Counted from the first letter of the stretch, positions 1 through 29,318 are shown. The stretch is 29,318 nucleotides of DNA from a virus (IMGVR_UViG_3300043787_000030:1-29318); one strand, 5' to 3'. A program made the numbers and translations. The notes: generated from the sequence alone by a model not told the origin.

Positions 1-981
1 ATACAAAGTCTTAAGAACAGGATTATTAGTAGATTGTTTTCTAAGAATATCAATCCTCTTATCCCATTCAGCAGCCTGTATCTTAGCAACTTGTACTCTA
101 GCCACTCTATTAGCTTCTGCAATCTTTTCGTTACTTAGATATTTTGCTGTTGCAGCTAAGTACTGTTTCTCATATCCACCTTGTTTTGCTTTAATTAAAT
201 CCTGTGCTACTTTATCCCGACCAGCAATTTCATCTTCTTTTGTTTTTGCCTCAGATAATGTCTTAATATTTTGCCACGACGCTGTACTCTGATGATTTGC
301 ATCAGGAATAAGTCCCTGTTGGATTAATTGAGCATTAATCTGTTGTTGTGGATTAAGCTGCTGTCTCGTTGGCTGAGCATTCTGTAATTTCTGTGCAATC
401 GGATTAAGTGGTTGTGCTTGGCCATTCTTATCCGCCTCTGCTTTATCCTTCTGCCATTTAGTCATAGCAGTTGCTAGGGCAGCTTGTTCGTTCTTATTCT
501 TACCATTCTTTGTTCCAAAGATATCAATATCATATGCCTTCTGTAATTGTTTAGATATCTTTGGGTCTGTCGTGATATCATTGATTATGGCCGTATTTTT
601 CTTTATTGCCTCTTTAGCCTCTTTATTATTCGGATCATTCTGTAACACTGCCTGTGCTTCTGTATTCCCTTGTTGTGCAGACATTAAACGAGTAATATTA
701 TTCTCCAATGTCCTATTCTTCTTCGCCTGTGTATAGTCCGACCCCGCTTTAATAGCCTGAGCAATTCCATTAGCCATCCTGCTTTGGTCATATCTCTTCC
801 GAGCACCAGCAGTCTGAAAATGATTCTGTGGCTGCATTTGTTGCTGTTGTGGTACTTGTAACTGTGGACGAGGACTAGGCTGTGCTAATGGCTGTGGTGC
901 CATAGTCGTGAGGCTATTAGGATTTACGCCAGTATTTCCAGGCAGACTAGAACTAGCAGCTTGTGTTAATACATCATCCAT
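1..981 (-). CDS. Gln/Asn-rich coiled-coil virion protein, C-terminus beyond window edge
   Basis: I read an open frame from ATG at 981 to base 1 with no stop, so at least 327 codons are present and the C-terminus lies outside the window. A strong AGGAGG sits just upstream of the start. The N-terminal 60 residues are low complexity (Pro/Gln-rich, with runs such as QQQQMQPQ). The rest is polar, Lys/Gln/Ala-rich and probably helical, for example around NTEAQAVLQNDPNNKEAKEA. It starts 8 nt after the stop of the upstream virion gene, so it belongs to the late operon. Large Gln-rich helical proteins at the end of podovirus structural blocks are often internal (ejection) proteins. That role is only a positional guess; I do not recognise the family. 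Confidence 0.8.
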   Translation of the reverse strand, partial: MDDVLTQAASSSLPGNTGVNPNSLTTMAPQPLAQPSPRPQLQVPQQQQMQPQNHFQTAGARKRYDQSRMANGIAQAIKAGSDYTQAKKNRTLENNITRLMSAQQGNTEAQAVLQNDPNNKEAKEAIKKNTAIINDITTDPKISKQLQKAYDIDIFGTKNGKNKNEQAALATAMTKWQKDKAEADKNGQAQPLNPIAQKLQNAQPTRQQLNPQQQINAQLIQQGLIPDANHQSTASWQNIKTLSEAKTKEDEIAGRDKVAQDLIKAKQGGYEKQYLAATAKYLSNEKIAEANRVARVQVAKIQAAEWDKRIDILRKQSTNNPVLKTLY

Positions 982-989
982 ATATCCTC

Positions 990-1922
990 CTATGCAAAGA
1001 ATGCTGCTAATTCACCAAGACCACCAGTACTCCCAGCAGCACCAGTATCTCCAAGTAATCCACTACTACCACCAAGACTTGCTGCGGCACTAGTTTCACC
1101 GCTATATTGATCAAGAGCACCAGAATTCATTGTACCAGAATCACTCCCGACAGTACTTCCATCAGTAGAAGGAGTACTAAACTGATCCATAATATTATTC
1201 GGTGTTGATGTTGGTACATCCGATGCAGCAGTACTTTTTGGAGTAGGTTGACTAACATTAGGAACAGGACCAGTAACAAGATTAGCAAGTCCCATAGCTA
1301 CACTATAGAAATCTGCAAAATCATTCATAAAACCACCCTGATCTGCATGTGTTTCTTGTAGTGGCCCCATGAGATTAGTTAATAATTGTAATTGTTCTGT
1401 TTGTGCATTTTCATACATACCTGCTAATGTTGATTGCTCATTAAGATTAACTTGACTCTCATAATTCCCAATCCCCAAAGCAGCCGCGCTTCCGAATCGT
1501 GATCCCTCAGCACCAAAAGAATTTTGTACTGATGCAAGCCCTTGTGCATTTCCAGGACCCATTGCATTAAGGAATGCGGCGGCGATCTGAGGATTGAATA
1601 ATCCATTAGTAAGTAGATTATTAATCTCATTCCCCATACCAGAACCGTATGTCTGGTTGAGTTCGTTTAATAAATTTTGAGGGACTTGATTCCCTGTAAA
1701 GCCACTACTAAGATCAGAAAGACCACCACTAGTACCACTCCATAACGGAGCATTAGAAGATGGTGTTACTGAACTTGTCCCAGATGGTGCTCCGAACATA
1801 GGGTAAGGTTGATTACCACCACTATTCATACTTACACCAGTATTCGTTCCAGTAGGATTCCAATTTCCCTGTGGTGGAAGTGGTGCATTATTACCTGTAA
1901 GCCCAAAAGAAGGACTAGCCAT
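990..1922 (-). CDS. Gly/Ser/Asn-rich probable virion protein
   Basis: This is a 310-aa protein with TAGGAGT upstream of its ATG. Residues 1-75 and 220-310 are low-complexity Gly/Ser/Thr/Asn/Pro. The centre (about 80-220) is better ordered and Ala/Leu/Gln-rich, with helices around LLNELNQTYG and LAGMYENAQTEQLQLLTNLM. The family is not recognised. It lies between the adaptor gene and the Gln-rich protein with 8-nt gaps on both sides. That placement suits an internal virion or ejection protein, but this is inferred from position. No signal peptide or clear transmembrane segment is seen. Confidence 0.75.
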   Translation of the reverse strand: MASPSFGLTGNNAPLPPQGNWNPTGTNTGVSMNSGGNQPYPMFGAPSGTSSVTPSSNAPLWSGTSGGLSDLSSGFTGNQVPQNLLNELNQTYGSGMGNEINNLLTNGLFNPQIAAAFLNAMGPGNAQGLASVQNSFGAEGSRFGSAAALGIGNYESQVNLNEQSTLAGMYENAQTEQLQLLTNLMGPLQETHADQGGFMNDFADFYSVAMGLANLVTGPVPNVSQPTPKSTAASDVPTSTPNNIMDQFSTPSTDGSTVGSDSGTMNSGALDQYSGETSAAASLGGSSGLLGDTGAAGSTGGLGELAAFFA

Positions 1923-1930
1923 ATATACTC

Positions 1931-2728
1931 CTAAGTATATCGTCTAACGACAGGTCGTAATTGTCGTTCATTAAAACTAGTCTGCCTATCTTGTTGTGTC
2001 ATACGAACGGTTATAATACCGGGCATTTCATTACCACGTTTGTCCTTATATCCATATAATTGATTATGATATAGTTGTCCAATATCCACCATACCAATAT
2101 CATAACATGCCTTTTCTGCCGCAGCGGTTATGATTATCTCAGTCCAATCTATCGGCATATAGATTTTCGACTGTGCTATCTGCCCAAGAGCCTGTGTGTT
2201 GGATATAGATAACAATACTTGCTCATATGAAATATTAAATGGATGTTGTCTCTGATACGTTAATTGTGTTGGATATGGATTGTCTGGCATAAAGCCTACA
2301 AGAATATATCCATTATTATCATACGAACCACTTAGACAATACACTGTTGGAAGTCCTAAGATCTTAGACATAGGCTCAACTACACGAATGTCTCTATCTT
2401 TCATCTCCATACCAGTACTTTGTCCTACGGTAATAGTTCCACTAGTATCAAAGTATGTAAACCAATTTCTAAGAAATGTTATTCTATCCGTTGAACTTTG
2501 TATAAAGGGATTTCCATTAACTCCAAGAAGGTCATAACCTCTTAATGGATATTGTGATATACTCTGTACAAAGTTCGTAAGAGGTCCTGTTACTTTAAGT
2601 TCCTCAAACTCATAATTCTGTGATAGATCAATTAATGCCTGTGCAATATAGTACGGACACGACCCCGTCTTATCCGTCCTACCACGGAGTTTACTAAGAA
2701 CTGCTGGTACTAAGTCATTAATAACCAT
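1931..2728 (-). CDS. Head-tail adaptor-like protein
   Basis: This 265-aa protein resembles podovirus adaptors that ring the portal and receive the nozzle. The N-terminus (LVPAVLSKLRGR, then YIAQALIDLSQNYEFEEL) follows the usual adaptor pattern of a helix with GR.D and a helix ending in Y.F.EL. In the middle, LPTVYCLSG followed by GFMPDNPYPTQLTYQR matches the common 'P..Y...G....PxPD..Y...L.Y.R' strand segment. It sits five genes downstream of the nozzle protein, which differs from a strict portal-adaptor-nozzle order. The start has only a weak AGGG but lies 6 nt after the preceding stop, so coupling is likely. The assignment rests on motif resemblance, not a search. Confidence 0.6.
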   Translation of the reverse strand: MVINDLVPAVLSKLRGRTDKTGSCPYYIAQALIDLSQNYEFEELKVTGPLTNFVQSISQYPLRGYDLLGVNGNPFIQSSTDRITFLRNWFTYFDTSGTITVGQSTGMEMKDRDIRVVEPMSKILGLPTVYCLSGSYDNNGYILVGFMPDNPYPTQLTYQRQHPFNISYEQVLLSISNTQALGQIAQSKIYMPIDWTEIIITAAAEKACYDIGMVDIGQLYHNQLYGYKDKRGNEMPGIITVRMTQQDRQTSFNERQLRPVVRRYT

Positions 2729-2734
2729 ATAACC

Positions 2735-3133
2735 CTAACCACCAAGAAAATATTCAACAAAACCCGCAGCAGATGCTGCTATTTCTAATGTAGTTATTCC
2801 AGCAGTCGCTCCACCAGGAGCTTGCCATAAAATAATTTGATCTCCAGGATATAATACTGTAATAGTAACATCAGAACCACCAGTATTCGGTGTCCAAGTG
2901 ACTGTTAAAGTTGCTACAGGATCTATATTTTTAATATATACTTCTGTAATGGGACTTATTGGTAATGGTATTGTATTACCACCAGCACTTAACTTTTTAT
3001 AAGTTGTAAATTGTCCAACATTACTAGCAAAAGCTGGATTTCCAGTACTTCTATTAATATCTACATTGGAAGTACTTTGCTCGGTACTTGAGACATTTGC
3101 AACTAATTGATTTGTTACATCCGTCGTTGCCAT
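2735..3133 (-). CDS. Small beta-rich virion protein
   Basis: This 132-aa protein has AGGAG upstream of its ATG. It has a polar Asn/Ser/Thr-rich N-terminus of about 40 residues, then alternating strands (EVYIKNIDP, ATLTVTWTPN, VTITVLYPGDQIILW) and a hydrophobic Gly-ending tail. That pattern fits a beta-sandwich or jelly-roll structural protein. The family is not recognised. Its place between adaptor and nozzle suggests a tail or head accessory subunit. Confidence 0.75.
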   Translation of the reverse strand: MATTDVTNQLVANVSSTEQSTSNVDINRSTGNPAFASNVGQFTTYKKLSAGGNTIPLPISPITEVYIKNIDPVATLTVTWTPNTGGSDVTITVLYPGDQIILWQAPGGATAGITTLEIAASAAGFVEYFLGG

Positions 3134-3486: not shown

Positions 3487-4094
3487 TACATTTGCGGTGT
3501 CTCATCAGCATTGCCACATAACACAAGAGAAATTATTGAATATGCACCAGAACCACCATTACTATTTATTGTCGGCTGTGGCCTTTCTCCTGGTACATTA
3601 ATCGGTATACGTAATGTATGTATCCGACCATCAGGAAAATTTGATTTCCTTTTTCCTTTTAATGGTTTAGGTGGAATACTAACTTGATATGGATATGATG
3701 TAAATGAATCTGTATTTTGCTCAAATGTTGTTACATTTATAGTAAGTGTGGCATATCCTAATTCACGATATTCCAAAATCAACATATGACAACTAACATC
3801 ACGCCCCTCTTGTGGGGCATCTAATGACGGTTTAACTTGTGGGAAATCATATTCTGCTGGTTCTTCACAATTAAAATTAGTTGGATCCATCAATAGGATA
3901 TATGATTTTTTAGTAGTATTATTAAACACAGGAGTTAACAACACTCCATTAACACCAAACAAACCACCAGTACTTGTTAATAACCCCGGATTACTCCCCA
4001 ACTTAGACGATTGATTTCCAAATGGTCCTTTAGGTAAAGGAGGTAATGGTGGTAATCCACCGGGACTATTAGGGCCGTATTGAGGAAAAGCCAT
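3486..4094 (-). CDS. Unrecognised virion-operon protein
   Basis: This 202-aa protein follows the nozzle gene by 3 nt and overlaps the next start by one base. The first 30 residues are Pro/Gly/Leu-rich (QYGPNSPGGLPPLPPLPKG). The rest has strands and ends with SIISLVLCGNADETPQM. I do not recognise the family. Tight packing on both sides argues that it is a real gene of the late operon. No signal peptide or membrane segment is evident. Confidence 0.72.
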   Translation of the reverse strand: MAFPQYGPNSPGGLPPLPPLPKGPFGNQSSKLGSNPGLLTSTGGLFGVNGVLLTPVFNNTTKKSYILLMDPTNFNCEEPAEYDFPQVKPSLDAPQEGRDVSCHMLILEYRELGYATLTINVTTFEQNTDSFTSYPYQVSIPPKPLKGKRKSNFPDGRIHTLRIPINVPGERPQPTINSNGGSGAYSIISLVLCGNADETPQM

Positions 4095-4097
4095 ATA

Positions 4098-5441
4098 TTA
4101 ACCAGTATAACAATATCGTGAATGTCCAGTAAAGAAAGTATTTGATTTAAACTCTGGTTGCCAACTAGAATCTTCTATAGAATAATTCCATATTTTTGTA
4201 CCACCAGATTGAGGAATAACTAATTTATAATGATTATAAACATAGTTTCCCTGATAATATGGAATAATACTTCCAACAGGATAACCTACTGCTTGATACA
4301 AATCATCATATATAGCATCTCTTGCTGTCCCACCGATACGATTAAAACCACCAAGAGAAACATTATAAATATCATCACTGCTTATAAATATCCCCAATGG
4401 TCCATATGCAGCAAAACCATATGGTATAATATTCCCTATCCCACGATCACTAGCCCATAAATGATTAAATGCAAATGGATTAATCCCCTGTCCAGTACTA
4501 GTAACTTCCGTAATCCCATTCTGCCTCAATATAAACGCCGTAGTACCAACAGTAAGAGCACCAAGTATGCTATCAGGAACATCGAGTTCGTCATTAAAAC
4601 CAGCTCCAATATTAACATTCGGATCCCATATAGTAGGTAACCCAGAAGGTGTCCATCTAACACGTTGTGTAAAATAACCACCAACACTTTCATTCGTGTT
4701 TAACATTATAAGTTGTGCATTAAGTTCAATCAAGAATAACGCACCAGCCGTTATCCCATTAGTCGCATCTACCATACCAACAGAACTGAAACCATTAGCC
4801 GCCGCTGGAACACCACCCATGATCCATGTTATAGGCGTTGTACCAGCGTCAACCGTCGTACCAGCAAGAGTTACTGACCAACCAGGAGTTACTCCACCAC
4901 TAATACCAGAATTACTAGCAACCTGGACTTTACCATGAGAGTCTATGATTTGTGATCCTTGTAAATATGGTGTATTCTTCTGCCATAATGCAGGAGCACT
5001 TACACTAGTTATCCCATCCCACATCCAGAGATTTTGACCACCATTTGTCCAAAATAATTTATCAACGAATACTTGAACACTTGCTGGATTATTAGGTCCA
5101 GGTTGTACTGGAAAGGAACCAACTAGACTCCATACTTTATTTGGTTTAGTTGAATTCCTTGTCCATAATCTATTTAGTTGCCATAAACCAGAACTAGTTA
5201 CACAGCAAGTATGATTTACATTATTACTATCTTGAAATGTATGTATAAATAGTACCGGATTCCCATCTGGAGGTCCGGGAATATATAATGACTGTACTGG
5301 CCTAGTACGAATTTCTCCATTCTTTAAAATAAAATTATTCATATACGGCGAAGAATCCACCGTTTGTTGGTCCTCTGGTGTGTTAGAATTAACACCCTTC
5401 CATGGACCCTTAAATTTTATTTCAAAATAATTCTTAGACAT
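4098..5441 (-). CDS. Tail nozzle / DNA-stabilisation beta-propeller protein
   Basis: This 447-aa protein resembles podovirus nozzle proteins (P22 gp10 or T7 tail tubular B type), which cap the portal-adaptor channel. The opening FKGPWKGVNSN, then SPYMNNFILKNGEIRTRPV, matches the family start ('G.nt..p.....yl.Nf.lr.G.i.tRp'). RVRWTPSGLPTIWDP matches the conserved 'R.rWs..g.p..W' segment. Later propeller-like repeats include LGALTVGTTAFILRQNGI and ASDRGIG. The ribosome site is weak. It lies in the structural operon just downstream of secreted protein A. Confidence is good for the class, less for the exact homologue. Confidence 0.72.
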   Translation of the reverse strand: MSKNYFEIKFKGPWKGVNSNTPEDQQTVDSSPYMNNFILKNGEIRTRPVQSLYIPGPPDGNPVLFIHTFQDSNNVNHTCCVTSSGLWQLNRLWTRNSTKPNKVWSLVGSFPVQPGPNNPASVQVFVDKLFWTNGGQNLWMWDGITSVSAPALWQKNTPYLQGSQIIDSHGKVQVASNSGISGGVTPGWSVTLAGTTVDAGTTPITWIMGGVPAAANGFSSVGMVDATNGITAGALFLIELNAQLIMLNTNESVGGYFTQRVRWTPSGLPTIWDPNVNIGAGFNDELDVPDSILGALTVGTTAFILRQNGITEVTSTGQGINPFAFNHLWASDRGIGNIIPYGFAAYGPLGIFISSDDIYNVSLGGFNRIGGTARDAIYDDLYQAVGYPVGSIIPYYQGNYVYNHYKLVIPQSGGTKIWNYSIEDSSWQPEFKSNTFFTGHSRYCYTG

Positions 5442-5461: not shown

Positions 5462-6718
5462 TTATTCAATGTTACAAATTGTTCCAGTTACTATAGTACC
5501 TGCTGGTGTTGTACCACTAAGTAATGCAGTAATAGCAAATGTTCCTGATGTTGCAGATGCTTGAATAATACCCCATGCTTGAAAGGGAGAATCTGTTACA
5601 GTAGTTAAAACAACTGTTGGTGTTGCAAATGGTACATTTCCTGCACTAGTTGAAGTAGCACTATTATAAGTAAATGCTTGTACTGCCGAAACGCTTGATC
5701 CAACTGATCCAATTAGACCATGACCAGTTTCAGTAGTGGGTGCTTGTGACGCATTCATTCCTAATGATATTTCAGGAGTAGTTCCAGCAGTAATAGAATA
5801 ACTACCATTACAAAACCAAGACCAAGTTTGTGCTGCATTCGGTAATGTCCAAGAACATATAGTAGTTGGAGAAGTTGAAAGGGTAATGGCACCATTTACT
5901 TTACACTGATTTTGTAAAATTAACCCGGTATTATTAGAACTATTAATACTCCACGCTTCTGTTGTTCCACTACCAGTAGTACCTATACTAGCCCCCACCG
6001 CACCAGTAGAAACTCCAGTTTGACTAGCTTTAAATGTTCCAGAATTTGTTATTTCAATTCCACCAGTAAAAATAGCAACTGCTATACCATTTGATAAGGC
6101 ACATAAAATATTAGCCGAACATGCAGAAATACCTGTAGTATTATAAGAATTAAAAGTATACCCAGGAACAGTAGTTGAACCATTGGGTGCAATATAATTA
6201 GTACCAGTATAAGTTAAAGTAGCACCATTATCAGTCAATAAACTATCAGGTCCAATAGTAGTACCACTTCCAGGATAAACACCTATCTGTCCAGTTGTAC
6301 CTGTATTAACTGTCCCAGAACCGCCACCAGCAGGATTATTTAAATATCCTGTAAGTGTAACGACAAGACTACCAGTGCCAGTAATAGAAGCAGCAGTATT
6401 AATCCGAACATAATTCACCGTATGTGCTGTACTAGTAAAATTCCCACTACTAGTACATGTCTGTGACGCAATAATATCCCCGGAACCCCAACTACCAGTC
6501 CCGGTTGTACTACTATCAACTTCCACAGTACAAGCTGAAAGACTTCCAATTACATTCCATGATATCTGGTAATACTGTGTTCCACTACCAATAACAGGTA
6601 GTATATACGGTGTTTGTACAGATAATGAATATGTCTGTGGAGGAGATTGTGTTGATAATTGACAAAAAGAAAAAGAAGATAACAACAAAATACACAAAAG
6701 TAAATTTATTTTTTTCAT
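5462..6718 (-). CDS. Secreted beta-sandwich protein A (signal peptide, fibre-like)
   Basis: This 418-aa protein has AGAGGA upstream. It starts with a Sec signal peptide: KK, a hydrophobic core LLLCILLLSSF, and likely cleavage in FSFC|QLST. There is no proper lipobox. Residues about 45-125 contain a Cys-bearing beta domain (SACTVEVDSS, TGTGSW, QTCTSSG, YVRIN) that is clearly repeated in the protein at 8920-9651. The rest is Gly/Ser/Thr-rich, with strands and a C-terminal module (CSWTLPNAAQTWSWFCNGSY) like tail-fibre or trimeric beta structures. A signal peptide on a product of the virion operon is odd for a cytoplasmically assembled phage. It could act as a secreted decoy, an exclusion factor or an envelope-exposed receptor. 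The domain has no function I can name. Confidence 0.78.
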   Translation of the reverse strand: MKKINLLLCILLLSSFSFCQLSTQSPPQTYSLSVQTPYILPVIGSGTQYYQISWNVIGSLSACTVEVDSSTTGTGSWGSGDIIASQTCTSSGNFTSTAHTVNYVRINTAASITGTGSLVVTLTGYLNNPAGGGSGTVNTGTTGQIGVYPGSGTTIGPDSLLTDNGATLTYTGTNYIAPNGSTTVPGYTFNSYNTTGISACSANILCALSNGIAVAIFTGGIEITNSGTFKASQTGVSTGAVGASIGTTGSGTTEAWSINSSNNTGLILQNQCKVNGAITLSTSPTTICSWTLPNAAQTWSWFCNGSYSITAGTTPEISLGMNASQAPTTETGHGLIGSVGSSVSAVQAFTYNSATSTSAGNVPFATPTVVLTTVTDSPFQAWGIIQASATSGTFAITALLSGTTPAGTIVTGTICNIE

Positions 6719-6731
6719 TGTTATCCTCTTT

Positions 6732-7019
6732 TTAATGATGATAAATACGTACTGTTCCAGTTAGCGTAATACCATTTATAGGTATCACAATCCCATCTGC
6801 ATGTCTTGATTGTCCTGTTCGGACAGTTTCTAGATCCGCAGCACCTTTTAAATAAGCAAAACTCTTCCCATTTGCTTGATTTATTGTTGCACTATCTGTG
6901 GTATTTGTATACTGTTGAAACTCCACATTATCAATAAGACATTTATACGCAAACACTATCACAGGTCCAGCAGCAACATCCGCGGCCGTTATCACCCAAG
7001 GATTTGATGTTACGTCCAT
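6732..7019 (-). CDS. Small beta-rich virion-operon protein
   Basis: This 95-aa protein has AGGAGA upstream of its ATG and lies 13 nt from the next gene. Strands such as WVITAADVAAGPVIVFAYKC and GIVIPINGITLTGTVRIYHH suggest a small beta domain with a His-ending tail. The family is not recognised. It is probably a minor structural or accessory protein on the basis of location. Confidence 0.7.
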   Translation of the reverse strand: MDVTSNPWVITAADVAAGPVIVFAYKCLIDNVEFQQYTNTTDSATINQANGKSFAYLKGAADLETVRTGQSRHADGIVIPINGITLTGTVRIYHH

Positions 7020-7036
7020 TATAATCTCCTATACAA

Positions 7037-7528
7037 TTACGGAGTTGTACGACCAAAGAAAACAGTAAAAGTAACTGGTGAATTACCTAGAGAATAATTA
7101 GCACCACCAGAATTACCGATATAAATTGGCATTTGTTGTGTAGTAGCAAAAGACGCTGGACCTACAAATAAGATAGGTCCATTAATACTAATCGCACTAG
7201 CAGTCTGTGTTAAAATCGCACTAAGATCACCAGTAAGGGGATTTGCATTTGCTACTGGACCATAAAATAATTTAAGGTTTCCACCATTCAATGTATATGC
7301 AGTCCCACCATAATCAAGTCGAACTGAATAAGTATCAACCCAAAGACATTGATAAATACTCGGTGTTGGTGTTAATTGAATAGGAGTTGTCTTAAGTAAA
7401 TTCATCTGAGCAGCACTAACTTGTACCTGTGCCACTTCAAGAGTATACATGACATTCCCATTCTGCTGATTAACTGCTTGCCATAATGGATACGTTTGAA
7501 TATTCGGAAGTGAAGGTGATGTTGCCAT
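7037..7528 (-). CDS. Beta-rich virion protein, possibly head or tail decoration
   Basis: This 163-aa protein has GGAGA upstream. The sequence alternates strands and turns (VQVSAAQMNLL, TPIQLTPTP, YSVRLDYGGTAYTLNGGNL). The pattern 'vs..q...l..tpi.l.p' recurs in small phage virion proteins, though I cannot name the family. It sits within the structural operon between the zinc-ribbon protein and a small beta protein. There is no signal peptide. Confidence 0.7.
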   Translation of the reverse strand: MATSPSLPNIQTYPLWQAVNQQNGNVMYTLEVAQVQVSAAQMNLLKTTPIQLTPTPSIYQCLWVDTYSVRLDYGGTAYTLNGGNLKLFYGPVANANPLTGDLSAILTQTASAISINGPILFVGPASFATTQQMPIYIGNSGGANYSLGNSPVTFTVFFGRTTP

Positions 7529-24326: not shown

Positions 24327-24455
24327 TGTCTTTGGGGAAAGACATAAATCCTCCCGCTAGGTCCGACGGAATAAATCGGACCATCTTTCAGGGGCACCTA
24401 GGAAGCTAGGTTTCCTGATGGATGGTAATAATTCGATAATAGGTTGATAACCTAT
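24327..24455 (+). ncRNA. Array of four hairpins upstream of the tRNA-like gene
   Basis: Consecutive perfect hairpins are seen: TGTCTTT/AAAGACA with a GGGG loop (24327-24344, 7 bp); GGTCCGA/TCGGACC (24360-24382, 7 bp, 9-nt loop); TCAGG/CCTGA enclosing ACCTAG-GAAG-CTAGGT (24388-24418); and ATAGGTT/AACCTAT with a 3-nt loop (24439-24455). CCATC (24381-24385) can also pair with GATGG (24421-24425). The last ends 3 nt before the tRNA-like acceptor. No T-tract follows, so these are not simple terminators. They may be an RNA with its own role or a processing leader. Confidence 0.5.
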
Positions 24456-24457
24456 GT

Positions 24458-24549
24458 AGGGATATAGCTCAAGATGGATAGAGCACCCGGATTAGAGCCT
24501 TATCACCTCAAGTGTCCGGTTGGTTACTGGTTCGATTCCAGTTATCCTA
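24458..24549 (+). tRNA. tRNA-like gene with 18-nt insertion in anticodon loop (TAG if spliced)
   Basis: The outer parts look canonical. There is a 5-bp acceptor core GGATA/TATCC (24460-24464 with 24543-24547) plus a G-U pair, TAGCTC with GAGC as D-stem, a D-loop with GG, and T-arm ACTGG-TTCGATT-CCAGT (24526-24542). A 5-nt variable loop fits if the anticodon stem is CCCGG/CCGGT (24486-24490 with 24516-24520; 4 bp plus a C-U mismatch). The loop is then 25 nt instead of 7. If 18 nt (24497-24514) are an intron at the canonical 37/38 site, the loop reads ATTAGAT, anticodon TAG. But a bacterial Leu tRNA should have a long variable arm. Position 1 mismatches position 72, and no CCA is encoded. The insertion could instead make a decoy tRNA. 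Confidence 0.5.
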
Positions 24550-24550
24550 A

Positions 24551-24578
24551 TTATTACTATCCAAAATTGTTGTATAAT
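24551..24578 (+). promoter_or_regulatory. Candidate promoter downstream of the tRNA-like gene
   Basis: TTATTA (24551-24556), a 16-nt spacer and a perfect TATAAT (24573-24578) give a start near 24585, about 33 nt before the ATG of the next gene. The -35 matches only four of six. Confidence 0.4.
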
Positions 24579-24617
24579 CTAGATAATATAACACACAAAA
24601 AAGGAGCAACATATATC

Positions 24618-25205
24618 ATGTCCACAACCGTAGCCACACCAACCCAACCACTAACCCGTACAGAAACCTTTGATATTGCTTTTGGTCTTAAGACCAAGAC
24701 CGACAAAGATGGTAATCCTGTTCTTGAAAATGGTAAACAAGTAACGGAAGCAGAAATGCTTACGGATGTAAAAAAAGCAGAAGAACTAAGCGAAAAGAAT
24801 TTGTTTGCTGGTACTACTATCCAAGTCCGTACTGATTATCCTTCAAGCTGGGATGGATTACTTGCCTTTGCTGAGAAGGAATGGAAAAATGAAGATGGTT
24901 CTGTTCGCCCGACTGAAGATGTAAAGGCAGAACTTGTTAAACTTCTTAACAATGGTGCCAGTGGTAAGGTAATGAATCGCTTGAGAGCTATTGCCACGAA
25001 GCAGGACGAAAAGGGTAATTTTGTCCTCACTGGTGATGTTGTTGATCTTACTAATGAAATTACCAGTGGTAGTAAGCGAGTGTTCTTGACTGAGGAACAA
25101 AAGGCTTGGAAGTCTTTGTCTAATCTTCCGGCAGCTATTAAGGATAGTATGTGGAAGGCATATTTGTCTGCCACAGGGAAGGATTATTACGTCCCGGCGG
25201 AGTAA
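24618..25205 (+). CDS. Unrecognised 195-aa soluble protein
   Basis: The start at 24618 has AAGGAG about 12 nt upstream. The same frame continues back into the tRNA-like gene, but nothing there supports translation. Segments look like a globular protein: RTETFDIAFGLKTKTDKDG, then PSSWDGLLAFAEKEWKNEDG (helical), LLNNGASGKVMNRLRAIA and LTEEQKAWKSLSNLPAAI. There is no signal peptide, membrane segment or known catalytic motif. It has its own promoter candidate and ends at a terminator, so it may be a single-gene unit. Confidence 0.7.
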   Translation: MSTTVATPTQPLTRTETFDIAFGLKTKTDKDGNPVLENGKQVTEAEMLTDVKKAEELSEKNLFAGTTIQVRTDYPSSWDGLLAFAEKEWKNEDGSVRPTEDVKAELVKLLNNGASGKVMNRLRAIATKQDEKGNFVLTGDVVDLTNEITSGSKRVFLTEEQKAWKSLSNLPAAIKDSMWKAYLSATGKDYYVPAE

Positions 25206-25679: not shown

Positions 25680-26222
25680 ATGCCCTACCGACGACGCCCA
25701 TCATGGCTAGATTCTTCTCCTACTACTACAAAAGTCTCTATCCACTGGTCTAGTAAATCCAGTGCCTTTGCTATTAAATTCTCCGATACAAAGAACTGGA
25801 ATCAGATGCAGATACTTATTCAGTATCTTAAGAATATTCCCTACGGAGAACGAGACTATGATCCAGAAACTAAAGTTTGGTTCCTAATCGAGAAATATAT
25901 CGAACCATTTAAGGAAATGGTTTCATTAATGAACCAATTCTTTTCTCTCGATTTCACGCCAAAACCGACAGAGCAAACAAACCAAGCCGTGTTTATTCCT
26001 GTTGATGTATATCTCGATAAATTCAAAAATTTAACCGGACATGATATTAAAGGTATTGAATATCCCGTAGCCAGAAAACAATATCTACGATGGTTAATGA
26101 TTAACCACCCGGACAAGAAACCGGAGAATCATATTCTTGTCCGTGATGTAAATGAATGTTGGTCGGCTCTTGAATTAAATTATTTTAAAACGAAAAAGGA
26201 GACGGAGTATGCTAGTACTTAA
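25680..26222 (+). CDS. J-domain-like (DnaJ) protein with N-terminal WxxW-type domain
   Basis: The start is ATG 25680 (GGAG about 12 nt upstream), giving 180 aa; a TTG six codons earlier is less likely. The C-terminal part, residues about 131-170, is a J-domain-like stretch: ARKQYLRWLMINHPDKKPEN (HPD at 143-145) then VNECWSALE, matching helix II, HPD loop and helix III. Such domains stimulate Hsp70 ATPase. The N-terminal part (SIHWSSKSSAFAIKFSD, PETKVWFLIEKY) resembles a small domain found in helicase-like proteins. So it may bring DnaK to a DNA-bound partner. It is the first of a tightly overlapped operon. Confidence 0.6.
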   Translation: MPYRRRPSWLDSSPTTTKVSIHWSSKSSAFAIKFSDTKNWNQMQILIQYLKNIPYGERDYDPETKVWFLIEKYIEPFKEMVSLMNQFFSLDFTPKPTEQTNQAVFIPVDVYLDKFKNLTGHDIKGIEYPVARKQYLRWLMINHPDKKPENHILVRDVNECWSALELNYFKTKKETEYAST

Positions 26223-26394
26223 AATAACAAAGAGAAATTTTGATAAAGCAATAAAATTATCAAAAAAGAAAATTATGATTTTATCTAAATGGCCAAAGGA
26301 ATTTTCAAACAAATATTATAATGCAAAAACCAGAAAACAACGTGCTATTATAGTAGGAAAAGTTATTGATGCTTATATAAAAGGTGACTTTTAA
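26209..26394 (+). CDS. Basic 61-aa protein
   Basis: The ATG lies inside the previous gene (14-nt overlap) with GGAG upstream. The protein is very Lys-rich (KITKRNFDKAIKLSKKKIM) and helical, and ends VIDAYIKGDF. It could bind nucleic acid. The family is not recognised; overlap places it in the J-domain/VWA operon. Confidence 0.6.
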   Translation: MLVLKITKRNFDKAIKLSKKKIMILSKWPKEFSNKYYNAKTRKQRAIIVGKVIDAYIKGDF

Positions 26395-26395
26395 T

Positions 26396-26578
26396 ATGCG
26401 AATTGACCTACATAACCTTCCCTACTCTCCTCCATATGAATATTGGTGTTATAATTGTGGTACTTGTAATTTATGTTTCTGTGTCACAGATAATTGTTTA
26501 GGTTGTGGTAGTGATAAAATTATAAAAGATGAATTAGGTGGATTAGATTTAGACAAATTAAGGAGCGAATACGAATGA
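26396..26578 (+). CDS. Cys-rich zinc-knuckle protein (60 aa)
   Basis: I start at ATG 26396, since AAGGTG lies about 10 nt upstream and it follows the previous stop by 1 nt; a GTG four codons earlier is possible. It has seven Cys in a 20-residue block (CYNCGTCNLCFC, then NCLGCG), probably two metal sites. The end is acidic. The stop overlaps the VWA start by ATGA. Confidence 0.62.
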   Translation: MRIDLHNLPYSPPYEYWCYNCGTCNLCFCVTDNCLGCGSDKIIKDELGGLDLDKLRSEYE

Positions 26579-27300
26579 CAGAATCAACAAACTTAACAGT
26601 AAAACCTAAGATATCTCTAGGCTTCAAAAAAGGTATCGCCGCTGTTCGTGAGCAAACAGAACAAAAATTAAAAGAACTAGATCCAAAAACAGTCCCCAAT
26701 CGTTTAGGTATTGTCTTTGATGACAGTGGCAGTATGAGCGGTGAAGCCATTACCAATGCTCACAGTGCTGTGAAAAACTTCACAGCATCCTGTGACTTCA
26801 ATACCACTAGTATCTGCCTCTACCCGCTTAACATTGACCCTAAACCATTAACCGTAGACTACGATTTGCTTAATCTCTTTGTACTTGGGATAAAGGCAGG
26901 TGGAGGAACGCCTTTGTATGGTAAGTTAGACTTGATGATAACCAACGAGTCTATTACAAGAGGAGTAGTTTTCAGCGATGGTAGTCCGACAGGTAGTAAG
27001 TTAATTGGTCATAGCGAAAGCTGGGATAGTAAACCAACGGATTTTGCTATTGGCGTTATTAAGAAATATCAAGAAAAAGAGATTCCAATAGATACAATTT
27101 TTATTGGTGAAGCCTACGATAACACTAGTGGTGGTTATGCAGAAATGAAGAAAATTGCAGAAATGACTGGCGGGACATTTATTCATTTCAAAGATAGTCA
27201 AAGTCTTAGTAGTGGCCTAAAGTATCTATCCCCGCGATATAGAGCATTGTTGAGTAATCCGGAAATAAAAGAAAGAATACAGAGAGGAGAAACAATATGA
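26575..27300 (+). CDS. Von Willebrand factor A (VWA) domain protein
   Basis: This 241-aa protein has AAGGAG upstream. It shows the metal-ion-dependent adhesion site: FDDSGSMSG (DxSxS at 49-53), Thr112 in GGGTPLYG, and FSDGSP (Asp135). VWA proteins bind partners through Mg2+ and often pair with AAA ATPases (MoxR-type) or with metallochelatase-like assemblies. No MoxR is seen here; the nearest ATPase is the FtsK-like translocase two genes on. The overlaps indicate a common operon. Its role in a phage is unknown. Confidence 0.75.
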   Translation: MTESTNLTVKPKISLGFKKGIAAVREQTEQKLKELDPKTVPNRLGIVFDDSGSMSGEAITNAHSAVKNFTASCDFNTTSICLYPLNIDPKPLTVDYDLLNLFVLGIKAGGGTPLYGKLDLMITNESITRGVVFSDGSPTGSKLIGHSESWDSKPTDFAIGVIKKYQEKEIPIDTIFIGEAYDNTSGGYAEMKKIAEMTGGTFIHFKDSQSLSSGLKYLSPRYRALLSNPEIKERIQRGETI

Positions 27301-27449
27301 ATCCAGTAGATGAAATCAACGACAATATCCCCTGTCCCGAATGTGGGCAAGATCCATGTATTTGTGATATAATCGAAGTTGATTATTTTATCGATGATGA
27401 AGATTTCTACACAGACGACGAAGAATCCGAGGATGAAATTATCCCATGA
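27297..27449 (+). CDS. 50-aa acidic zinc-knuckle protein
   Basis: ATG 27297 overlaps the VWA stop (ATGA), and GAGGAG lies upstream. The N-terminal half has CPECGQDPCIC (four Cys, residues 13-23). The C-terminal half is strongly acidic (DDEDFYTDDEESEDE). The stop overlaps the FtsK-like start by ATGA. A Cys knuckle with an acidic tail could mimic DNA or bridge the VWA and translocase proteins; this is speculative. Confidence 0.65.
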   Translation: MNPVDEINDNIPCPECGQDPCICDIIEVDYFIDDEDFYTDDEESEDEIIP

Positions 27450-28579
27450 CAGAATCCTATACACCAGAACAAACAACCAACACTTTGGCTCTTGTCCGTA
27501 AACTAATCGGTCTTGGCATCCAAGCCAAGCCTATTGGTGTAGAACAAGGGCCAGTAGTAACGGCATATTTCTTTGAACTCGACCAAGGGGAAAGTCTTAG
27601 TAAATTTCTCAAACGTAGTGAGGACTTTGCCCTTTCCTTGGGAGTGGACAAAGTAATTACACAACGAATAAAGGACAAAGTAGTAATCTTTATCCCAAAT
27701 AAAGAACGAAAAATTGTAGATTTTAAGGATGTTCTCTATTGGTACATGAACGATGAAAAAGTAAAAGAAATGGAAATCCCTGTACCACTAGGAGTAGACT
27801 TTCATGGTAATAAGAGTGCTTTTGATCTTGCAGCTTGTCCTCATGTACTTCTTACTGGTAGTACGGGCTCCGGAAAGAGTGTCTATGAAGCAGCTATATT
27901 ATCGAGTCTTGGGTACTACTTTAATCCTAGTGAACTTAATATGTATTTGGTTGACACTAAAAAATTAGATTTACCTTTATTTAAGACCCTGCCACATGTT
28001 TTAGATGTGGCAGATGACTTGGACAAATTTCACAATATGATTAACACAATCATGTTAGAAATTCGTCGTCGGAATAGTATGTTACAAAATGCACAGGTAC
28101 GGAATATTCAATCTTATCATAAAATGATGGGTGGGAAAGAAAGCCTTCCATATATTATTCTTATGTTAGATGAATTCGGTTATCTTATTAAATTAGACGA
28201 AGAAGCTCGTAAGGAGGATAAAGAGAAATATGAAGATATTCCTAGGGTTATGTCCAGAATCCAGACTGCCGCGGGCATTGCCAGAGCAGCAGGAGTTCAT
28301 ATTATCGCCTGTACTCAAAGAGCAGATGTTAAAGTTATTAACGGAACCATAAAAACAAACTTGCCTTGCCGCATCGCACTTAGATGTACAAGTAGGGTTG
28401 ATTCTCAAACTATTCTTGACACCGGAGGAGCTGAGAATCTTCTTGGAAAAGGAGATATGTTAGTAAAATATCCAGAAAACGACATATTAGTAAGATATCA
28501 TGGTCCTTACGTAGACATGGCAGATATACAACAACTAACAATGAATTATGATATGATTAAGGGGAGTATGAGGAGTTAA
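27446..28579 (+). CDS. FtsK/SpoIIIE-type DNA translocase
   Basis: This 377-aa protein matches the motor half of FtsK. A beta-type domain at about 35-90 (GPVVTAYFFELDQG, IFIPNKERKIV) precedes the RecA-like domain: Walker A GSTGSGKS (138-145), VDTKKLDLPLF, Walker B ILMLDEFG (238-245), then ARAAGVHIIACTQRAD and TILDTGGAENLLGKGDML. There is no N-terminal membrane region and no C-terminal winged-helix gamma domain, so it is a short soluble form. FtsK-like motors move double-stranded DNA. In a phage with its own terminase the target is unclear: perhaps genome segregation, resolution, or transfer. Confidence 0.82.
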   Translation: MTESYTPEQTTNTLALVRKLIGLGIQAKPIGVEQGPVVTAYFFELDQGESLSKFLKRSEDFALSLGVDKVITQRIKDKVVIFIPNKERKIVDFKDVLYWYMNDEKVKEMEIPVPLGVDFHGNKSAFDLAACPHVLLTGSTGSGKSVYEAAILSSLGYYFNPSELNMYLVDTKKLDLPLFKTLPHVLDVADDLDKFHNMINTIMLEIRRRNSMLQNAQVRNIQSYHKMMGGKESLPYIILMLDEFGYLIKLDEEARKEDKEKYEDIPRVMSRIQTAAGIARAAGVHIIACTQRADVKVINGTIKTNLPCRIALRCTSRVDSQTILDTGGAENLLGKGDMLVKYPENDILVRYHGPYVDMADIQQLTMNYDMIKGSMRS

Positions 28580-28580
28580 T

Positions 28581-28778
28581 ATGGATATAAAAGGTAAAAG
28601 TATGATTGTAAGAAACTCTCAAATAATTCAGTTTTATATAGAAATTGAGTCTGCTCATCGTTATGAATTTTTAGAAGAACTATTACATAAATTAGGTTAT
28701 GCTTATTATCTTCCACCTGCACGAGATAAATTACCAAAAACACTTGAAGAAATTGAATGTCTTTTAGAGGATAAATGA
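28581..28778 (+). CDS. Unrecognised 65-aa protein
   Basis: The ATG follows the translocase stop by 1 nt, with AGGAG upstream. The protein has strands (GKSMIVRNSQIIQFYIEIES) and a helical, acidic end (LPKTLEEIECLLEDK). Its stop overlaps the next start. The family is not recognised. Confidence 0.6.
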   Translation: MDIKGKSMIVRNSQIIQFYIEIESAHRYEFLEELLHKLGYAYYLPPARDKLPKTLEEIECLLEDK

Positions 28779-29036
28779 AATACATAATGCTCCAACATCG
28801 CCAAAATAAGAACAAAGTCCCAATAATCTTCCCTAACCACCTAGTACACATTACTGTCTGGGACACACTCTGTCTTTCCCCCTGAATTTGGCCTACAATA
28901 CGACTGCATTTCTGCTGGTGAATGTACTATAACCTGCACCGCTGTCCACGGTAATAGCACCACACTCAATCTAACTTTCGCTGATGGTGACAGTGCTGTA
29001 ATAGATATGATGGATTACTTACATGGTTTAGAGTAA
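28775..29036 (+). CDS. Two-part gene joined by a +1 frameshift at CCC TGA
   Basis: ATG 28775 overlaps the previous stop by ATGA. The zero frame gives 36 aa (MKYIMLQHRQ, VPIIFPNHLVHITVW) and stops at TGA 28883. If the ribosome slips +1 on the Pro codon CCC (28880-28882) and skips T28883, it continues with GAA at 28884 for 50 more codons (EFGLQYDCISAGECTI, HGNSTTLNLTFADGDSAVI) to TAA 29036, 86 aa in all. The second part has no start codon. The joined product resembles a family of small phage proteins with a 'KY..L......P.iFp..L.H' start and a SAG segment. CCC-TGA is a known +1 shift context in Listeria phage PSA. A one-base error in the run of five C is the main alternative. Confidence 0.55.
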
Positions 29037-29155: not shown

Positions 29156-29201
29156 CCTGTAACCTTAGTCAAATGGGGCAGCCTACCCACATACTACAGA
29201 T

Positions 29202-29242
29202 AAAAAGTACGGCCGTCAGTCTTCTAGACCGACAGCCATTTT
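29202..29242. terminator. Bidirectional terminator between convergent units
   Basis: The arms 29211-29222 and 29226-29237 pair. The two A-C mismatches on the plus-strand RNA become G-U pairs on the minus-strand RNA, giving a 12-bp stem there with a 3-nt loop. On the minus strand it is followed by GTACTTTTT, and on the plus strand by ATTTTC. It should end the leftward tRNA-like transcript well and the rightward operon less well. Confidence 0.65.
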
Positions 29243-29254
29243 CAACGTGCACTG

Positions 29255-29318
29255 TAGCGGCGGCAGGAGTCGGACCTACGATCCTCCGGATTAGAATCCG
29301 GTGCTGGTCGGCAACGGG
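29255..29318 (-). tRNA. tRNA-like gene, 5' part beyond window; anticodon uncertain (TCT or CTA)
   Basis: On the minus strand the 3' acceptor strand CGCCGCT (29262-29256) and a T-arm GTAGG-TCCGACT-CCTGC (29263-29279) are clear, as is part of a D-arm (CAGC). The T-loop has C instead of T at position 55. The anticodon stem CCGGA/TCCGG encloses only six bases (TTCTAA) with a 6-nt variable loop. If the missing base is position 32 the anticodon is TCT (Arg); if it is position 38, CTA (reads UAG). The visible D-loop lacks a GG pair. No CCA is encoded. The 5' acceptor strand is outside the window. Confidence 0.5.

Follow-up and report, generated by a model that had tools for sequence, protein, structure and literature searches.

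A conserved trio of J-domain, VWA and FtsK-type motor genes in a lineage of uncultivated tailed phages, with a possible role in DNA handling

Results

Gene organization of the cassette

The window analysed here, 29,318 bases long, is itself a virus record. Between positions 25680 and 29036 of its plus strand, the eight head-to-tail frames given in the preliminary description are confirmed. Together with the upstream gene c9, the features are:

24618..25205, plus strand: c9 (195 aa), precedes the J gene lineage-wide; conserved, function unassigned
25680..26222, plus strand: J protein (180 aa), core gene 1; HARP-like domain and C-terminal J domain with HPD
26209..26394, plus strand: basic 61-aa protein, not core; 14-nt overlap with the J gene
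26396..26578, plus strand: seven-Cys protein (Cys-7, 60 aa), not core; 1-nt gap before it; probable metal binder
26575..27300, plus strand: VWA protein (241 aa), core gene 2; ATGA junction; invariant MIDAS
27297..27449, plus strand: acidic CPxCxxxPCxC (Cys-knuckle) protein (50 aa), not core; ATGA junction
27446..28579, plus strand: FtsK/SpoIIIE-type soluble motor (377 aa), core gene 3; ATGA junction; alpha and RecA-like domains
28581..28778, plus strand: 65-aa protein, not core; 1-nt gap before it
28775-29036, plus strand: frameshifted gene (~86 aa); ATGA junction; readable only with a +1 shift

The seven junctions of the cassette measure, in order, -14, +1, -4, -4, -4, +1 and -4 nt. The tight packing by ATGA overlaps or 1-nt gaps described earlier is correct for all but the first, the 14-nt overlap of the J and 61-aa genes being the sole junction of neither type.

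The window is part of a tailed-phage genome of ~51 kb. Contig IMGVR_UViG_3300044653_000021 (51,150 bases) covers it as a circular permutation: positions 1-3091 match the end of this contig and the sequence from 3104 onward matches its start. The genome is therefore circular, circularly permuted or terminally redundant. The minus strand carries structural genes (the terminase and a weak major-head match). Past the window, the cassette strand of the sister contig encodes a PD-(D/E)XK exonuclease, a Sak4-like protein, an SSB-sized protein, a DNA polymerase match and a primase/helicase.

Several further features were observed in these sequences. The sister contig encodes a GroES-like protein (PF00166, 2.8e-9; L007:1513-2106), in which N-terminal Cys pairs of the CxxCxGxG type recall the DnaJ zinc finger, and, on its structural strand, an ATP-grasp-like protein (GARS_A, 1.2e-9; L007:8611-9888). 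It also contains a LAGLIDADG endonuclease gene (4e-6; L006:3482-3898), where the window has unrelated sequence (about 24392-24594). An Rfam tRNA match at 24458-24550 of the window (39.8 bits), not called by ARAGORN, overlaps the start of a long ORF that runs into c9. By eye, an apparent partial tRNA on the minus strand (29200-29318) is cut by the window end; ARAGORN gave no call for it on the sister contig.

The small genes are restricted to close relatives

The preliminary description took all eight genes as parts of one machine. This does not hold for the five small genes (61-aa, Cys-7, Cys-knuckle, 65-aa and frameshifted), which outside close kin are absent or swapped for unrelated small ORFs. 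The basic 61-aa protein has a clear homologue only in a near-identical contig; L012 shows weak similarity to it (E 4e-4). The Cys-7 homologue of L011 is located elsewhere (905-1216), and the acidic Cys-knuckle protein is recognisable only in L011, with unrelated small ORFs at its place in other relatives. Accordingly, both Cys-rich proteins were rejected as core parts. The 65-aa protein is likewise confined to close kin. In the last gene, the +1 shift at CCC_TGA (28880-28885) is identical in the near-identical contig, and the shifted read-through product can be aligned over the full length of an 85-aa homologue in L083 (11378-11635), the frame of which is unbroken. The shift is either programmed frameshifting or else a recent lesion or a shared assembly error.

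Domain composition of the core proteins

The J domain is confirmed by evidence from its family. Of its 29 members, 26 have a Pfam DnaJ (PF00226) match (best 3.3e-8), the family profile matches the J domain of Sis1 (6.5e-11) and the HPD motif is invariant in all 29. In the AF2 model (pLDDT 84) an N-terminal alpha/beta domain is followed by three J-like helices, and H143-P144-D145 occupies the loop that joins helix 128-141 to helix 148-178. Pfam gave no DnaJ match for the window's J protein alone. The best viral fold matches, none of which reaches E 0.001, include a HepA-related protein, a polyomavirus T antigen and a SMARCAL1-like protein; annotated viral HARP proteins match with a probability of 0.99-1.00 (E 2.5e-3 to 1e-2). 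Weak Pfam HARP matches are present in 5/29 family members (best 0.0015), with the window's protein below the Pfam cut-off, and the PDB fold search gave no significant match. From these domain assignments, the J protein could probably call on the host Hsp70 chaperone. The model of c9 (pLDDT 79.5) has no confident fold match and none in the PDB search, and Pfam assigns c9 of the window to no family.

The MIDAS of the VWA protein is intact, as had been stated (D49-x-S51-x-S53, T112 and D135), and its pattern DxSxS...T...D is invariant in 30 relatives. Pfam VWA_2 is found in 26/30 and VWA_3 in 22/30 family members (E up to 0.1), and the best solved structure for the family profile is 8s05 (3.2e-11). 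The C-terminal tail contains a conserved K-Y-L-x-P-x-x-R motif.

Both Walker motifs, A (GSTGSGKS) and B, are present in the motor, and the motif columns are invariant in its relatives. Pfam detects the FtsK_SpoIIIE motor domain (PF01580, 1.6e-29) and the alpha domain (PF17854, 1.3e-8), and a search of solved structures with the FtsK profile gives FtsK motors (1.4e-87). In its 377 residues there is no Pfam gamma domain, no membrane domain and no N-terminal extension. It is therefore called a soluble FtsK-type motor here and not a cell-division FtsK.

The core trio is fixed across one broad lineage

An alignment-based VWA scan identified 63 viral loci, to which one locus from a metagenome-assembled genome (L073) was added. 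In all 64, FtsK is the next of the core genes downstream of VWA on the same strand, and the J gene is present in every locus with more than 812 nt of upstream sequence (55/55). The J-VWA spacing reaches 2 kb in some relatives. Across 31 non-redundant loci, the order c9-J-VWA-FtsK-c8-c5-exo-c20-Sak4 is kept as far as each contig extends and for every gene detected. With FtsK as the anchor, 41 loci had full flanks; 34 of them have VWA, J, c5 and exo, six have none of these and one has VWA only. Anchoring on the terminase with at least ~9 kb of upstream sequence gave FtsK, VWA and J in 20/21 loci, the exception being L296; L308 duplicates L244, and without the duplicate the count is 19/20. Co-occurrence of the trio in other phages is thus far beyond chance, and the earlier claim of a recurring gene set stands for these three genes. 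The opposite outcome considered there, homologues that never occur together, is clearly not what these neighbourhood counts gave.

The window's terminase is present in 32 of 37 records tested, including all cassette contigs longer than 40 kb. The records without it are two FtsK-only phages, the L080 phage and two cassette contigs of 7 kb and 37 kb, which may be fragments. Together with the anchored counts, this distribution shows the module to be fixed within a single broad lineage. One scan of IMG/VR confirmed 387 terminase relatives, whereas the 50,697 deposited phage records gave four matches, all of them weak. Single-sequence searches of INPHARED with VWA and J gave nothing, even at high E; distant relatives were reached only by alignment-based search or via the terminase. 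A scan of genome collections gave three matches. Among them the module is present in L073 alone, a phage-like contig from a Sulfuriferula metagenome-assembled genome (which does not prove the host); the other two (E 8e-6 and 4e-5) are weak and are read as generic VWA proteins. VWA matches on haloarchaeal plasmids belong to large unrelated proteins and served only as an alignment seed. The FtsK-like motors checked outside the lineage have no neighbouring VWA or J. A displacement of the motor in a second sub-lineage is not claimed; the unrooted FtsK tree, when the VWA-less motors are taken as outgroup, is compatible with one origin. No natural fusion among the J, VWA and FtsK genes was seen, and no paper reporting the trio was found in the literature.

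Two loci lie apart. In the distantly related podovirus ctLwi270 (MW202554), whose terminase is 27.5% identical to that of the window over the aligned part, an HPD-bearing J gene adjoins VWA, followed by an HTH gene, a PD-(D/E)XK nuclease, a Sak4-like frame (by eye) and an SSB-like gene. There is no FtsK match anywhere in this genome; thus, VWA does not need FtsK there. The terminase of ctLwi270 (L222, 32887-34542) is interrupted by an apparent intein, the insert of which starts with Cys and ends with Asn-Cys. L080, from an unrelated 71-kb phage, encodes a DUF2786-VWA protein (3952-5295) and an FtsK motor (5989-7107) with two small ORFs between them, and has no J, c5, exo or matching terminase. 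This VWA-FtsK pair is possibly an independent one. Each pair therefore recurs once outside the core lineage, VWA-FtsK in L080 and J-VWA in ctLwi270, and neither is absolute. Scans with both outlying VWA proteins found no further members.

Discussion

Comparison with known systems

The window's motor has the alpha and RecA-like domains and the Walker A/B motifs in common with FtsK/SpoIIIE translocases (phage proteins of PHROG 1358), but lacks their membrane domain and the Pfam gamma (sequence-reading) domain. It is paired with VWA and J, whereas the other phage FtsK motors checked are not. Sinorhizobium phage AP-20-A, a soil podovirus of ~49 kb that was compared by description only, likewise has a PHROG 1358 FtsK motor. 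Its FtsK/SpoIIIE protein p011 was proposed to act on replicating concatemers, and its terminase was reported as closest to those of Paenibacillus phages (PMC13299392). That report mentions no VWA or DnaJ.

An HPD motif between helices II and III is common to the J protein and other J-domain proteins (DnaJ/Hsp40, polyomavirus T antigen and the J protein of phage RB43, for which DnaK binding is cited in PMC12619734). In the window, by contrast, the J domain is C-terminal, fused to a HARP-like domain and without a zinc finger. The likeness to HARP (HepA-related protein, PF07443; SMARCAL1) is one of viral folds and of weak Pfam matches in 5/29 family members, and the window's J protein has no fused SNF2 helicase.

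VWA proteins beside a ring ATPase are known from other viruses. Group 2.2 jumbo phages encode MoxR-vWA pairs and DnaJ proteins, for which a function in virion assembly was proposed (PMC7824862), and the MoxR protein p618 of ATV binds the VWA protein p892 (PMC4124505). These systems resemble the window in the MIDAS-bearing VWA next to a ring ATPase and in a virus with Hsp co-chaperones. However, the ATPase beside VWA is of FtsK type at all 64 loci instead of a MoxR AAA+ protein, the genes are positioned in the replication block, and the peptidase fusion of the jumbo-phage VWA is missing from the window's protein. The precedents for the earlier statement that VWA proteins usually act with an ATPase are MoxR AAA+ proteins and not FtsK.

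A possible DNA-handling complex

The preliminary description suggested a machine for DNA handling or host takeover. DNA handling is consistent with the position of the genes immediately before those for the exonuclease, Sak4, the SSB-like protein, DNA polymerase and primase, whereas host takeover has no direct support. A joint function is suggested by gene order, and the likeliest role would be DNA handling, for which the J protein would recruit host DnaK. More specifically, the three core genes may encode a phage DNA-handling complex that is made with the recombination/replication block, a reading of slightly less than even probability. Physical contact, DNA binding, recruitment of DnaK and the stage of action are all inferred from the domain families and the gene order. 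The soluble FtsK ring would act as a pump on double-stranded phage DNA, such as concatemers or DNA in replication. The VWA protein could serve, via its metal site, as an adaptor or regulator linking the motor to other proteins. The HARP-like half of the J protein might bind branched or single-stranded DNA, or another component, and its HPD loop would bring host DnaK to remodel or recycle the complex. The replication of phage lambda uses DnaJ and DnaK, and polyomavirus T antigen uses a J domain of its own.

The fixed order, the invariant HPD, MIDAS and Walker motifs, the recurrence of pairs in L080 and ctLwi270 and the HARP-like N-terminus argue for such a complex. Points against it are the single terminase lineage, the FtsK-less ctLwi270, the J-VWA gaps of up to 2 kb and the lone motors outside the lineage. 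Because nearly all loci belong to one terminase-defined lineage, the order could also persist by descent alone. The three genes would then act separately in different jobs. This main rival is less probable but a serious one: gene order is commonly kept within phage lineages, and the absence of FtsK from ctLwi270 and of J from L080 indicates that the parts are separable. Inheritance alone accounts less well for a trio that persists while the small genes between and around it turn over freely, for an FtsK that is always next although VWA identity drops to ~27%, and for the single recurrence of each pair beyond the core lineage.

It is improbable that VWA and J instead help as co-chaperones to assemble capsids or tails while FtsK aids the packaging of DNA. 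Such a function would be in line with the proposal for the jumbo-phage proteins, the p618-p892 interaction of ATV and the GroES-like protein of the sister contig, but the genes belong to the rightward replication/recombination block and not to the leftward structural block, and the adjoining ATPase is not MoxR, its nearest profile being FtsK, a DNA pump. Counter-defence genes usually spread patchily, which is unlike the lineage-wide fixation of the trio. A counter-defence or host-takeover function, for example a motor acting on DNA or proteins against defence and a J protein sequestering DnaK, is quite improbable. PADLOC matches the motor to the FtsK-like domains of SspH and mads_8, which reflects the generic FtsK/HerA motor domain shared by these proteins, and DnaK binding by the RB43 J protein would suit sequestration. 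On the other hand, J, VWA, c9 and c5 have no PADLOC family match. With the generic motor domain as the only match, assignment to a known defence system was rejected.

The DNA-handling complex might even represent an undescribed phage DNA machine, in which an FtsK-type pump would have its dedicated regulator in VWA and be coupled to host Hsp70 by the HARP-J protein. The machine would be fixed as a core function of a large lineage from which hardly any isolate has been deposited. This extended proposal is rather unlikely. VWA adaptors have been described alongside MoxR AAA+ ATPases; obligate VWA-FtsK pairing, if true, would be a new use of such an adaptor on a DNA pump. A HARP-J protein in the replication block would offer a possible route for phages to draw host Hsp70 to DNA. 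The module marks a widespread, little-described lineage of uncultivated phages.
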